Positions 9,551 through 20,677 of a stretch of DNA of 37,149 nt are shown here, in pieces (position 1 is the stretch's first letter; each line of letters begins with the position of its first letter). The stretch is from Candidatus Krumholzibacteriota bacterium. Its GTDB lineage: Bacteria > Krumholzibacteriota > Krumholzibacteriia > Krumholzibacteriales > Krumholzibacteriaceae. The position numbers and the translations under genes were made by a program. Location: positions 1 to 37,149 of the forward strand of contig JAFGPI010000223.1 of assembly GCA_016926065.1 (NCBI GenBank). Reading direction: 5' to 3'. A model generated the notes under the pieces. The model was not told where the DNA came from and made no database searches. It saw only the letters and a list, made by a program, of their open reading frames with translations.

Positions 9551-11164
9551 CTAGCCCGCCCGGCGCCGGCTGACGATCACCAGCATGCCGACCAGCCCCA
9601 CCAGCGCGGGAAGCCCCACCACCGGCAGCCAGAAGACCACCCTTCCCTGCTCGGAGGATAAGACCACGGGCTGGGTAAAATCGTCCTTGGGACGGATGGA
9701 GATCAAATCTTCCGCTTCGGCCAGCCAGTTGAAGGTATTCAGGATCAAATCCCGGTTGCCGGAGAGCCGGAAATTGCTGTTGGAGGAAAAATCGCTATCG
9801 CCGAAAACCACCAGTCGGGACCGGGCGGGGGAGGAGGCGGGGGAGAAATCCGCGGGAGACGCGTCCTCCTCCGTTCCGGAATCCGCTCCCTTCCCGTCAC
9901 TCCCGGTGGCGGAGAGGGTCAGGGTGAGTTCCGCGGCGGCGGCCACGTCGATCGGTCCGGGAATATCCTGGTCCGGATTGAATTGGGTGCTGCCCGCCAG
10001 CAGGGTGTCGATATTGGTTTCCGCGTAGGCGCTTTTATCGGTTTTGCAGATAATGGAAACGCTGACGTCTCGGGGAATCTCGGCTAGGGCGGTTACGGAA
10101 CGGGCCTGCGGGAAAAAGGAAAATTGCCTGAAACCCTCGGTTATGGGATGTTGGCCGTAGCGGTTGATCACCGGCGTCAACAAGTTGCCGGCCAGCACCT
10201 TTCCGGCCCGATCCACCACCACGTTGCGGCCCAGATCGATGCCGTAGGCGGCCGCGATTCCGGACAACATCTCGGTTTCGGTTATGGGGTCGAGGAGAAA
10301 AAGCCCTTTGCCGCCACGGGTTAGATAATCGAGGACGGAGTTTTGCTCCTTTTTCAGAAGCTCCCGCCGGGGACCGGCGATTACCAGGATATCGCAGTCC
10401 TCCGGGATCTTCTCCTCGCGGATGATAAGGAGCTCACGCACCAAGAAGTTCTCCTGCTCCAGAGCTTCGCGCAGGGCCTTGTATTCACCGGGAGCGGGAT
10501 CGTTCATCCCCTTCTCGCCGTGTCCGGTGGAGAAGTATATAGTTTTTTGATGGCTGCTGATTACCCGCAGAATGCTGTTGGTCAAATCCCCCTCGGTGAG
10601 ACCCTTCAGCTCCTCCTTCGAGTCCGCGGTTTCCACGAAGGTGGTCCCGAATTTCTTCAGAGCGTAACGCCGGGCGGTGACCGGATCCTTGTCCGGATCG
10701 ATAAAGGTATAGATAATCCGGGGACTTATATTGCGATAGGCCCGCAGTAGATCTTCCAGCACGATTTTATCCTCGGATGTTTCCTTGAAGAAACAGGTGA
10801 AATAGATATCTTTCTCCAATCCCCGTAGCACCTTCTCCGTTTGGGGAGAGAGGGAGAACCTCCGGTTCCGGGTGGTGTCGATCCTCAGGTTGTGGCGGAG
10901 AGAGAGGGCCTGAATGAATATCACGATGGCGGCGAAGACGAGGATCGATATTCCGGTACTGATTCCATACCGGGCCGATCGGCTCAGGCTGGAGGAAGGA
11001 TCACGGCGCCGCCCCAGGAAGAGGGAGGTCACGGTGAGGATCAAGCCGGCGAGCAGAGGCAGGAAGGCCAGAAATCCGCTGGAATAGAGAATGCCGTAAC
11101 CCACCCCGCCGGCCACTATCAATATTAAACCCACCGGACCGATCAATTTCTTCAGCCACTCCAT
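9551..11164 (-). CDS. GldG-family ABC transporter auxiliary protein
   Basis: The protein has 537 residues. Three N-terminal membrane segments are followed by the typical GldG junction (LRIDTTRNRRFSLSPQTEKVL). A large periplasmic domain with IYFSTGHGEKG and ILVIAGPRRELL comes next, and a final membrane helix ends in a basic tail (VSRRRAG). The GldG/IFT52-like domain is found in ABC complexes such as the gliding-motility Gld system, but is much more widespread than gliding. An acidic, Ser/Ala-rich insert (about residues 415-440) precedes a conserved VFGDSDF motif. It begins 1 nt after the permease gene ends, so they form one operon. It may help handle a periplasmic or outer-membrane substrate; the substrate is unknown. 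Confidence 0.87.
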   Translation of the reverse strand: MEWLKKLIGPVGLILIVAGGVGYGILYSSGFLAFLPLLAGLILTVTSLFLGRRRDPSSSLSRSARYGISTGISILVFAAIVIFIQALSLRHNLRIDTTRNRRFSLSPQTEKVLRGLEKDIYFTCFFKETSEDKIVLEDLLRAYRNISPRIIYTFIDPDKDPVTARRYALKKFGTTFVETADSKEELKGLTEGDLTNSILRVISSHQKTIYFSTGHGEKGMNDPAPGEYKALREALEQENFLVRELLIIREEKIPEDCDILVIAGPRRELLKKEQNSVLDYLTRGGKGLFLLDPITETEMLSGIAAAYGIDLGRNVVVDRAGKVLAGNLLTPVINRYGQHPITEGFRQFSFFPQARSVTALAEIPRDVSVSIICKTDKSAYAETNIDTLLAGSTQFNPDQDIPGPIDVAAAAELTLTLSATGSDGKGADSGTEEDASPADFSPASSPARSRLVVFGDSDFSSNSNFRLSGNRDLILNTFNWLAEAEDLISIRPKDDFTQPVVLSSEQGRVVFWLPVVGLPALVGLVGMLVIVSRRRAG

Positions 11165-17351: not shown

Positions 17352-17380
17352 TTGACACGTCTAGTGATTTCGGATATAAT
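17352..17380 (+). promoter_or_regulatory. Perfect consensus sigma70 promoter
   Basis: TTGACA and TATAAT are separated by exactly 17 bases, the best promoter in the window. Transcription should start near 17387 and run into the structured leader and terminator at 17456-17489, upstream of the BamE-like lipoprotein. Confidence 0.8.
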
Positions 17381-17386
17381 ATTAAT

Positions 17387-17489
17387 GCAGGGTTGATTGA
17401 CATGGGCCCGTCCCATGACGATTCTTCAACCGCGCGGCAGATCAATAGAGAATGAATCGCCATGGGGACCGGAAACCATGGCGATTTTT
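17387..17489 (+). ncRNA. Structured leader RNA or attenuator upstream of lipoprotein gene
   Basis: About 100 nt from the predicted transcript start to the terminator. Hairpin P1 is GGTTGA (17391) with TCAACC (17426), enclosing CATGGG-CCCGT-CCCATG (17401-17417). Alternatively CCATGACGATTC (17413-17424) can pair with GAATCGCCATGG (17454-17465). That 12-bp helix has one A-C mismatch and would break both the inner hairpin and the terminator stem. The arrangement of anti-antiterminator, antiterminator and terminator is that of a riboswitch or protein-dependent attenuator. I recognise no known riboswitch class. A stand-alone small RNA is the alternative. Pairings were made by eye. Confidence 0.6.
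17456..17489 (+). terminator. Intrinsic terminator in leader
   Basis: ATCGCCATGG and CCATGGCGAT form a perfect 10-bp stem with a 10-base loop, followed by TTTTT (17485-17489). It lies about 60 bases before the lipoprotein start, so read-through is needed for that gene's expression from the promoter at 17352. Confidence 0.8.
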
Positions 17490-17493
17490 GTGA

Positions 17494-17531
17494 GGAACAA
17501 AAGGCCGGCCGATACCCGGTACACTTGTTCC
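17494..17531 (+). repeat. Inverted repeat just upstream of lipoprotein ribosome site
   Basis: GGAACAA (17494-17500) and TTGTTCC (17525-17531) form a perfect 7-bp stem around a GC-rich loop containing GGCCGGCC. It ends six bases before the SD GGGGAGG (17538-17544). It may stabilise the mRNA 5' end after terminator read-through or act as a second control point. Confidence 0.4.
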
Positions 17532-17550
17532 GGAAAAGGGGAGGAAGTGT

Positions 17551-17997
17551 ATGCGTAAAATCATCATTTCCTGTGCTGTTTTACTGTTTCTTCTAAATCT
17601 CGGTTGCTCTCGGGTTTCCATGGTGGAGAGAGAAAGCTTTCAGGCACCGGAAGCCCGGGAAGCGTACGTCAAGTCCCACCCGGACGGGGCGTATTGCCAG
17701 CATATCTGCAACGGGGAAATCGTCCGGGGAATGAACGGGCACGAGGTTCTCGCTTCCTGGGGATTACCCAATCTGTACCTGGTATCGGACAAGAAACCCG
17801 AAGAATATTGGGTTTATTACACCGCCGATATCAACGCCAACGCCATGCTGATCTACACCCTTACCTTCAACGATATGGATCAGCTGCATGATTGGGACAT
17901 CGACATCAAAAGGTTTGTCAACCAGGGCTTTGCCATGGAACCATCGAAGATATTGTCGAGCCTGAAGGAAGAAAGTTCCATTTCCCGCAAGCGCTAA
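17551..17997 (+). CDS. Small lipoprotein, BamE/SmpA-like
   Basis: The 148-residue protein has a lipoprotein signal peptide with lipobox LNLGC (Cys19). The mature part contains GEIVRGMNGHEVLASWGLPN, the helix-turn pattern of BamE/OmlA-type lipoproteins, followed by a strand EEYWVYY. That suggests a BamE-like fold attached to the outer or inner membrane. True BamE membership is not certain, since the family signature is short. The start has GGGGAGG six bases upstream. It appears monocistronic; lon has its own promoter at 18093. Its leader carries a strong promoter and terminator (see 17352-17489), so expression is probably conditional. Confidence 0.7.
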   Translation: MRKIIISCAVLLFLLNLGCSRVSMVERESFQAPEAREAYVKSHPDGAYCQHICNGEIVRGMNGHEVLASWGLPNLYLVSDKKPEEYWVYYTADINANAMLIYTLTFNDMDQLHDWDIDIKRFVNQGFAMEPSKILSSLKEESSISRKR

Positions 17998-18295
17998 CGG
18001 TTGTTGAACGAGCGCCCGGACGGCACTTCTAATTATTACTCGGCTCCAGGGGGGTAGGGCGTCGCCCTCCTATATCCATCGCACTTTTCAAATTGACTTA
18101 TAAGCCATCCTTCTCTATGCTGGTTAGCGGAGTTTGATATATTCAGACCGCGGTGTATCCCGCCCCGGTAAGGGGACCGTTAATCATAAGTATGGCTGCG
18201 CATTCGGGTGGACGGACTCGACCGGCGGCAAAGTTATTATCGGTTGACAGAAAGATATAAATAAAATTCTCTTTTCGGGCCGGAAAGGTTGAGGG
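17998..18295. other. Intergenic region upstream of lon
   Basis: The gap holds a short palindrome AGGGCG-T-CGCCCT near 18050, the promoter at 18093-18121, a small hairpin CCCC-ggta-GGGG near 18165, and a TTGACA at about 18244 without a good -10 partner. No coding potential was seen beyond a 22-codon ORF without a ribosome site. Confidence 0.5.
18093..18121 (+). promoter_or_regulatory. lon: Sigma70-type promoter for lon
   Basis: TTGACT and TATGCT are separated by 17 bases, giving a leader of about 170 nt before the lon ATG. I found no CIRCE element or clear sigma32-type box, so heat-shock control is not shown by the sequence. Confidence 0.5.
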
Positions 18296-20677
18296 ATGGT
18301 CGCCATCAAGGATAATCACGAGCTGTTGAAGAGAATCAAAAATGAACTGGCGGTAATTCCGATAAACGACGGCGTGGTATTTCCTTACATGCTGGTACCT
18401 CTGGTGCTGACCGATCCCAGCCTGATCCGCTTGGTGGAAGAGGTCCTGGAGGGAGAAAGGATAGTGGGGGTGTTCACTCAGATCGACCAGCAGGTGGCCA
18501 CTCCCGGAACGGAGGATCTCTATCCGGTCGGTTGCGCCATGCTGATACAGAAAATGGCCCGTTTCCCGGATAACCAGATACGCATTATCGGCCAGGGGCT
18601 GTCCCGCATCGGCATCAACTATTTTCTTTCCACCGAGCCCTACCTGCGGGCCAGCATAGAAATTATGGAGGAGCCGGAACGGCAGGACGACCGGGTCAAA
18701 GCACTGCTGCAGAATGTCGCCTCACTCTTCGTCAAGCTGGTCGATAAATCGGAGAGTTACCCCGAAGATTTGAAAAACGTAGTCTCGGATATCAAGAATC
18801 CCGGCCGCCTGGCCGACCTGCTGGCCTCCAATATAGACATGAACATTCCGGAACGCCAGTCCGCCCTGGAACTGCTCGATCCCGTCGAGAGACTGACCTA
18901 CGTCTACGAATTTCTCAACAATGAGCTGGAAATAGCCCGAATCGGGGAGAAGATACGCCGCGACGTGCACCAGGAAATGGACAAGGAACAAAAGGAGTAC
19001 TATCTGCGGCAGCAGATAAAAGCCATACAGAGGGAACTGGGCGACGGCGACTCCGAGGTGGAACTGGACGATCTGAAAGAGAAGATCGATGAGATCACCA
19101 TGCCCGATTATGTGCGCAAAACCGCCCTCAAGGAATGGAACCGTCTCGCCCGCATGTCCTCCGGCTCGGCTGAATATACGGTGACCAGGACCTATATCGA
19201 CTGGATTCTCGATCTTCCCTGGGAATACTCGACCGGGGATATCCTGGAGATGGACAAGGCAAAGAATGTTCTGAACCGGGAGCATTACGATCTGGAACAG
19301 GTAAAGGAGAGGATACTGGAATTCCTGTCGGTCAAGAAATTGAGAAAAGATACCAAAGGTTCCATCCTCTGTTTCACGGGACCTCCGGGTACCGGAAAAA
19401 CTTCGCTGGGGAAAAGCATCGCCTCGGCCCTGGGACGGCAGTTTGTGCGTATCTCCCTGGGGGGGATCAAGGATGAAGCGGAAATCCGTGGGCATCGGCG
19501 CACCTACATAGGAGCCTTGCCGGGGAGGATTATCCAGGGGATAAGGAGCGCGGGCACCAACAATCCGGTATTCATGCTGGATGAAATAGACAAGCTGGGA
19601 AACAGCTTCCAGGGCGATCCCTCGGCGGCCCTGCTGGAGGTGCTGGATCCAGAGCAGAATCACTCCTTCGAGGATCACTACCTCAATTTGCCCTTTGATC
19701 TCTCCCGGGTGATGTTCATAACCACCGCCAATATCCGGGAAAGCATACCCCCGCCTCTCTTGGACCGCATGGAGGTGCTGGAAATCCCCGGGTACATTAC
19801 CGATGAAAAAATCCAGATCGCCCGAAGGTTCCTGGTGCCCCGGCAATTGCGGGAAAACGGGATCAGTGAAAAGAAACTGGAAATAACCGAGGATGCCATC
19901 CAGGCCATAATAGACCGTTACACCCGCGAAGCCGGCGTCCGGAATCTGGAAAGGAAGATCGCCACCATCGCGCGAAAGGTGGCCAAGAAACTGGTGGAGG
20001 GTAAAAAGGGTCCATTCCGCGTATCTTCCCGGAACCTTAAAAGCTATCTGGGAACGAAAGATTTTCCCGACCAGGAGATGTTATCCCGTCCGGAAATAGG
20101 GGTTTCCACCGGAATGGCCAAAACTTCCTCCGGGGGAGTGATCCTGTTCGTGGAAGCCCTGGCCATGAAAGGGCGGGGAACGGTGAAGCTTACCGGTCAC
20201 CTGGGAGAGGTGATGAAGGAATCGGCTGAAGCGGCGGTGAGTTTTGTCCGGTCGCATTATTTCGATCAGCTGTGGGAGAAAAATTTCTTTGAAAATAACG
20301 ATATCCACCTGCATATTCCCGCAGGGGCCGTTCCCAAGGACGGACCCAGTGCCGGTATCGCCATCATTGCCTCCCTGGCTTCCCTGGCCATGCATAGAGA
20401 GGTAAGGAACGATCTGGCCATGACCGGGGAAATCACGTTGACCGGCAAGGTGCTTCCGGTGGGAGCGGTCAAAGAAAAGGTGATCGCCGCCCACCGGGCG
20501 GGGATCCGGGAAGTCATCCTGCCCGCGCCCAACCGTAAGGATCTGGAAGATATTCCTCCGGTCATCACAAAGGAAATGCGCTTCCGGTTCATAGAGAATG
20601 TGGAAGAGGGTATCTCCCTCGCCTTGATCCAGGAGGTTAAGAGGGAAAGGCCCAAGGCAGAAAGTAAATCGCCATGA
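18296..20677 (+). CDS. lon: ATP-dependent Lon protease
   Basis: At 793 residues it has full Lon length and domain order. The N-terminal substrate-binding domain (about 15-210) is followed by a coiled linker (about 215-260). The AAA+ module has Walker A GPPGTGKT (362-369) and Walker B VFMLDEIDK. The C-terminal peptidase has the catalytic dyad Ser685 in DGPSAG and Lys728 in VKEK. It degrades misfolded and regulatory proteins in the cytoplasm. The start has AAAGG seven bases upstream. Its stop overlaps the next gene, a GT9 glycosyltransferase, as ATGA, so lon is the first gene of a surface-glycan cluster. That neighbourhood is unusual for lon and may couple protein quality control to envelope assembly. 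No motif is missing. Confidence 0.97.
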   Translation: MVAIKDNHELLKRIKNELAVIPINDGVVFPYMLVPLVLTDPSLIRLVEEVLEGERIVGVFTQIDQQVATPGTEDLYPVGCAMLIQKMARFPDNQIRIIGQGLSRIGINYFLSTEPYLRASIEIMEEPERQDDRVKALLQNVASLFVKLVDKSESYPEDLKNVVSDIKNPGRLADLLASNIDMNIPERQSALELLDPVERLTYVYEFLNNELEIARIGEKIRRDVHQEMDKEQKEYYLRQQIKAIQRELGDGDSEVELDDLKEKIDEITMPDYVRKTALKEWNRLARMSSGSAEYTVTRTYIDWILDLPWEYSTGDILEMDKAKNVLNREHYDLEQVKERILEFLSVKKLRKDTKGSILCFTGPPGTGKTSLGKSIASALGRQFVRISLGGIKDEAEIRGHRRTYIGALPGRIIQGIRSAGTNNPVFMLDEIDKLGNSFQGDPSAALLEVLDPEQNHSFEDHYLNLPFDLSRVMFITTANIRESIPPPLLDRMEVLEIPGYITDEKIQIARRFLVPRQLRENGISEKKLEITEDAIQAIIDRYTREAGVRNLERKIATIARKVAKKLVEGKKGPFRVSSRNLKSYLGTKDFPDQEMLSRPEIGVSTGMAKTSSGGVILFVEALAMKGRGTVKLTGHLGEVMKESAEAAVSFVRSHYFDQLWEKNFFENNDIHLHIPAGAVPKDGPSAGIAIIASLASLAMHREVRNDLAMTGEITLTGKVLPVGAVKEKVIAAHRAGIREVILPAPNRKDLEDIPPVITKEMRFRFIENVEEGISLALIQEVKRERPKAESKSP

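Follow-up and report, generated by a model that had tools for sequence, protein, structure and literature searches.

The leader that precedes a small lipoprotein gene in Candidatus Krumholzibacteriota is perhaps best read as a cis-acting transcription attenuator controlled by ribosomes, similar in principle to that of the E. coli pyrBI operon, a reading to which we assign a probability of about 0.5 on the strength of sequence comparison and analogy. The initial annotation had suggested a riboswitch or attenuator. The attenuator half of that suggestion is supported, with promoter, leader and terminator preceding orthologs of the gene class-wide, whereas the riboswitch half is not supported, with neither an Rfam match nor an aptamer-like core. 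The element is real, conserved and very probably a transcription attenuator; on present evidence it is not a riboswitch.

The window, meaning the whole stretch of 37,149 nucleotides that was analysed, is a contig of a 3.0 Mb Krumholzibacteriota MAG, and the named relatives recovered by the alignment search are mostly Candidatus Krumholzibacteriota. The gene order throughout the family is a PMT_2 glycosyltransferase gene, the lipoprotein gene and lon. The features of the locus are as follows.

17352 to 17380, forward strand: sigma-70-type promoter TTGACA-17-TATAAT, a 12/12 match to the consensus, with 10-12/12 matches at the same place in the 15 family leaders.
17391 to 17431, forward strand: 5' hairpin with an outer GGTTGA/TCAACC helix, an inner CATGGG/CCCATG helix and a bulge on the 3' side; relatives have the same architecture with covarying pairs.
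17402 to 17455, forward strand: possible 17-codon frame from ATG 17402, its stop touching the 5' arm of the terminator, as read directly from the sequence.
17415 to 17558, forward strand: leader ORF of 47 codons, homologous in position to the GTG/TTG start of relatives.
17454 to 17489, forward strand: intrinsic terminator hairpin and T run, z -4.8 against shuffles.
17540 to 17544, forward strand: Shine-Dalgarno (SD) sequence GGAGG of the lipoprotein gene, 6 nt upstream of its ATG, as seen in the sequence.
17551 to 17997, forward strand: lipoprotein gene encoding 148 aa with an OsmE/BamE-type fold, assigned from orthologs and a fold match.

Orthologs of the lipoprotein were found in 17/20 genomes of the family and 30/80 of the phylum; a single-sequence protein search of the genome contigs returned none, and it was the alignment-based search that recovered them. 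The AlphaFold model has a core pLDDT of about 90, and its best PDB fold matches are OsmE (4dm5, E 2e-3, probability 1.0) and BamE (8bvq_E, E 3e-2, probability 0.98). The earlier description of the protein as BamE-like is therefore right at the level of fold and not at that of sequence, since neither the Pfam nor the PDB profile for BamE/OsmE (SmpA/OmlA) gave a match. Tandem lipoprotein genes occur at L063 and L064, in two genomes of family f8, and one genome (G019) carries a further lipoprotein copy (L022) without such a leader.

Two other promoters drew attention. The lon promoter (18083-18125), located in the gap 17997-18296, has an extended motif, ACTTTTCAAATTGACTT...TATGCT, and copies resembling CTTTTTCAAATTGACTT, longer than an ordinary -35 box, lie upstream of lon in 12 other family loci. 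The promoter check of the window's own genome covered exact-consensus promoters only. Separately, at L085 (G000:C188, near 10300-10433, minus strand), a consensus promoter is followed by a transcript folding as one long rod of about -50 kcal/mol, which closes with a GC-rich stem and a T run and has no Rfam match; it resembles an independent RNA, possibly of the 6S type.

The promoter and terminator reported for the lipoprotein leader are both present. TTGACA (17352-17357) and TATAAT (17375-17380) are separated by a 17-nt spacer, and transcription would start near 17387. In the terminator, GAATCGCCATGG (17454-17465) pairs with CCATGGCGATTT (17476-17487) over 12 pairs, one of them G-U, rather than the 10 originally counted, and the five T's occupy 17485-17489. 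This hairpin is far more stable than its shuffled counterparts, and leader and terminator taken together give z -2.5. A simple terminator scan missed it because its 10-nt loop exceeds the limit of 8 nt set in that scan.

The order promoter, leader, terminator, SD and lipoprotein recurs in 15 genomes of the family, including one (L075) whose contig breaks within the lipoprotein gene, and in 5 genomes from another, distant family in the class. The usual layout comprises a TTGACA/TATAxT promoter, a leader of about 60-90 nt, an intrinsic terminator, a further 35-70 nt, an SD and the lipoprotein gene. In 20/20 leaders a terminator-type hairpin sits at the same relative place, ahead of the T tract, and exceeds shuffled sequence in stability, with z from -2.1 to -5.7. 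A clear T-run terminator was found neither at L014 nor at four loci of family f2. Three leaders of that sister family (L055, L056 and L057), which lack the T-run terminator, share GGAAA(T/C)AACTCC and a small hairpin, CCTC...GAGG, just before the SD, an arrangement whose sequence suggests control at translation instead.

What points to ribosomes is a leader reading frame that the initial annotation did not include. In the family, a GGAGG or GGGGG lies 16-24 nt from a GNAGG that is conserved close to where the transcript begins. In nearly all leaders that carry it, GTG or TTG comes exactly 6 nt further on, or ATG 5 nt further on; the exception is L012, for which a GTG was chosen as start and not the nearer TTG. 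This spacing is that of the lipoprotein gene itself (GGAGG-6-ATG). The frame so defined has no stop before the T run ends in 12/16 leaders, as opposed to 4/16 and 5/16 for the other two frames, and the shuffled expectation is 7.5 ± 1.8, with 12 reached in 11/1000 shuffles. Stop codons number 4 in 358 codons of the leader frame against 15/352 and 13/346 in the others. In 18/18 leaders the frame stops past the terminator arm or at most 12 nt short of it; shuffles give 14.2 ± 1.7 and attain 18 in 11/1000. Downstream of the terminator this depletion is not seen, with about 6/254 codons, obtained by difference, against 10/254 and 7/256. The sequences tested are those that had suggested a leader ORF, so these p values lack independence and the tests count as moderate evidence. 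In several leaders the frame ends at or next to the start of the lipoprotein gene, forming an ATGA overlap in L008 and L013, reaching 8 nt inside in L005 and stopping just before it in L016 and L018.

The encoded peptides, by contrast with the frame, do not appear to matter. They have no Pfam match, and among the relatives compared they are not conserved and share no run of codons. In the one close pair available (L015/L075), the peptide changes faster than constraint would predict, with pN 0.29 and pS 0.18, and the RNA differs at 12 of 78 positions up to the terminator against 25 of 66 after it. A functional leader peptide was rejected for want of a Pfam match and of purifying selection in this pair, and an amino-acid attenuator for want of a common codon run, together with pN exceeding pS. 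Since the peptide shows no constraint in this pair and the RNA is better preserved before the end of the terminator than after it, translation rather than its product is the likely function of the leader frame.

Most relatives carry a leader ORF with a ribosome-binding site overlapping the terminator; the window keeps the ORF and has lost the SD. GGGCCC stands in its place, the homologous ATG (17415) still opens the 47-codon frame through the terminator, and this frame runs 8 nt into the lipoprotein gene. A second ATG (17402) has a weak AGGG 9 nt upstream, and its frame ends at the terminator arm.

In the proposed ribosome-controlled attenuator, RNA polymerase would start at about 17387, make the 5' hairpin and by default stop at the terminator ending at 17489. 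A ribosome that initiates in the leader and follows closely would occupy the 5' arm of the terminator, so that polymerase would read through into the lipoprotein gene. The signal would be the act of translation, the peptide being irrelevant. We infer translation of the leader frame, a role for the 5' hairpin in governing either access to the SD or pausing of the polymerase and, with less certainty, a window copy that still responds to ribosomes without its SD; in several relatives the leader start and SD lie partly within the hairpin. The alternative that survives best, although we consider it rather unlikely, is an unregulated partial terminator that imposes a fixed cut in lipoprotein expression, with the SD and leader ORF having no regulatory role. 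It would accommodate the weak T tails of L006, L007 and L010, the SD-less window copy and the fact that the signal is not known, but it would not lead one to expect exact SD-start spacing maintained through GTG/TTG/ATG variation, or stop depletion confined to the stretch up to the terminator.

About as unlikely is an independent small RNA gene, some 100 nt long, with the lipoprotein gene served by its own or an upstream promoter. Promoter and terminator do form a self-contained unit, and the strict synteny of its neighbours could hold such a unit in place; because PMT_2, lipoprotein and Lon are kept together throughout the family, co-location alone is weak proof of cis action. Against a separate gene stand several observations. 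Among the 15 family leaders, consensus matches reach 10-12/12 for the promoter ahead of the terminator and at best 0-7/12 from terminator to gene, so the gene should need read-through; promoters of the distant family match less well, and at L035 a 9/12 match lies downstream of the terminator. The leader is kept at the L037/L062 locus, where the upstream neighbour differs. Leader sequences diverge freely outside the promoter, the SD-start and the hairpins. L017 has neither leader nor terminator, and its promoter stands directly upstream of the gene. Taken together, sequence comparison makes it highly probable that the lipoprotein gene normally lies behind a cis attenuator.

The remaining question is whether RNA folding alone could control termination, with CCATGACGATTC acting as an anti-terminator on the terminator arm, switched by ligand, protein or temperature. 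The reported CATGGG/CCCATG hairpin exists (17401-17406 with 17412-17417), inside GGTTGA (17391-17396) and TCAACC (17426-17431). Seven relatives aligned without gaps support this interrupted hairpin, with 81 percent of cells paired, 6 pairs changed on both sides and a covariation score of 0.273 against 0.179 ± 0.040 in shuffles; its values were reached by 3 to 22 of 500 shuffles, pair types excepted. It is clearly stable in part of the family only, and its loops and bulges vary among relatives. A covariance model (R1) built from five relatives recovered two held-out copies, from G016 and G018, both lying at this locus. It did not detect the window copy, where the same hairpin layout has a different sequence. 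R1 found at most one good match per genome and no convincing copies at other loci, so the leader is not a dispersed RNA family. A similarity search with the leader DNA matched, within its genus, only the window itself.

The alternative pairing claimed for the window can also form, 17413-17424 joining 17454-17465 in 11 of 12 pairs at -14.7 kcal/mol, and is moderately unusual against dinucleotide-shuffled leaders (p 0.027). Besides this pairing and the covarying hairpin, control by folding alone could draw on L016, whose pairing is unusually good (p 0.01), but through the other hairpin strand. Over 20 leaders, however, anti-terminator complementarity is no better than in shuffles (mean z -0.04), so the three-helix switch first envisaged does not generalise, and the competing helix does not belong to the conserved mechanism. 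The leader matched no known class in Rfam scans at gathering and relaxed thresholds, the initial annotation having likewise been unable to assign it to a riboswitch class, no aptamer-like element was seen in the leaders compared, and no unpaired nucleotides are conserved among them except an SD sequence. A riboswitch was rejected because this conserved unpaired core is lacking, and the literature yielded no papers joining Krumholzibacteria with riboswitches. Control by folding alone, with no conserved loop or junction beyond the SD, is by a small margin the least probable of the three alternatives.

A wider reading of the ribosome-controlled attenuator can be offered tentatively, and we think it rather doubtful as a whole. 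A class-wide Krumholzibacteriota attenuator may read translation capacity itself, through initiation and ribosome-polymerase coupling and with no peptide or metabolite, to set the output of an outer-envelope lipoprotein, while termination within the frame would yield short mRNAs without a stop codon. If the ribosome-controlled attenuator itself is right, the pyrBI principle, in which a ribosome keeps open a terminator within a disposable reading frame, would be at work in a very different and uncultured phylum, where it would serve an envelope protein and not a biosynthetic operon, as one conserved single-copy switch whose input would be translation capacity or polymerase pausing.

Several known systems offer points of comparison. 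Amino-acid operon attenuators, such as that of M. tuberculosis ilvB1 (PMC13236596), likewise place a translated short ORF and a terminator in the 5' leader. The leaders described here differ in having no regulatory codon run, conserved peptide or conserved anti-terminator, and their logic would be opposite, with translation favouring read-through. Transcription-terminating riboswitches share the succession of 5' structured RNA and intrinsic terminator and differ in the conserved aptamer core, Rfam match and conserved competing helix that are lacking here. In the E. coli ampC attenuator, ribosomes initiating on the leader hinder the terminator, and a very short leader frame suffices. The very short frames of L006, L007 and L012 resemble this arrangement, whereas most frames in Krumholzibacteriota leaders run through the terminator.

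More generally, terminators in E. coli are repressed by a ribosome positioned on or close to them, and those lying in the first 100 bp of coding sequence mostly still function under translation unless ribosome and polymerase are synchronised by pausing (PMC4824070). The pyrBI terminator is kept from forming by coupling across pyrL (PMC5021804). The present leaders differ from pyrBI in gene class, in the lack of an identified UTP-sensitive U-rich pause region, in the start and SD that lie partly in a hairpin in several relatives and in the SD-less window copy. The likeness to pyrBI lies in a terminator placed inside a leader ORF whose length is comparable, 135 bp for pyrL and 47 codons for the window, and in an advancing ribosome that prevents termination in pyrBI (PMC5021804, PMC4824070), as it is proposed to do here.
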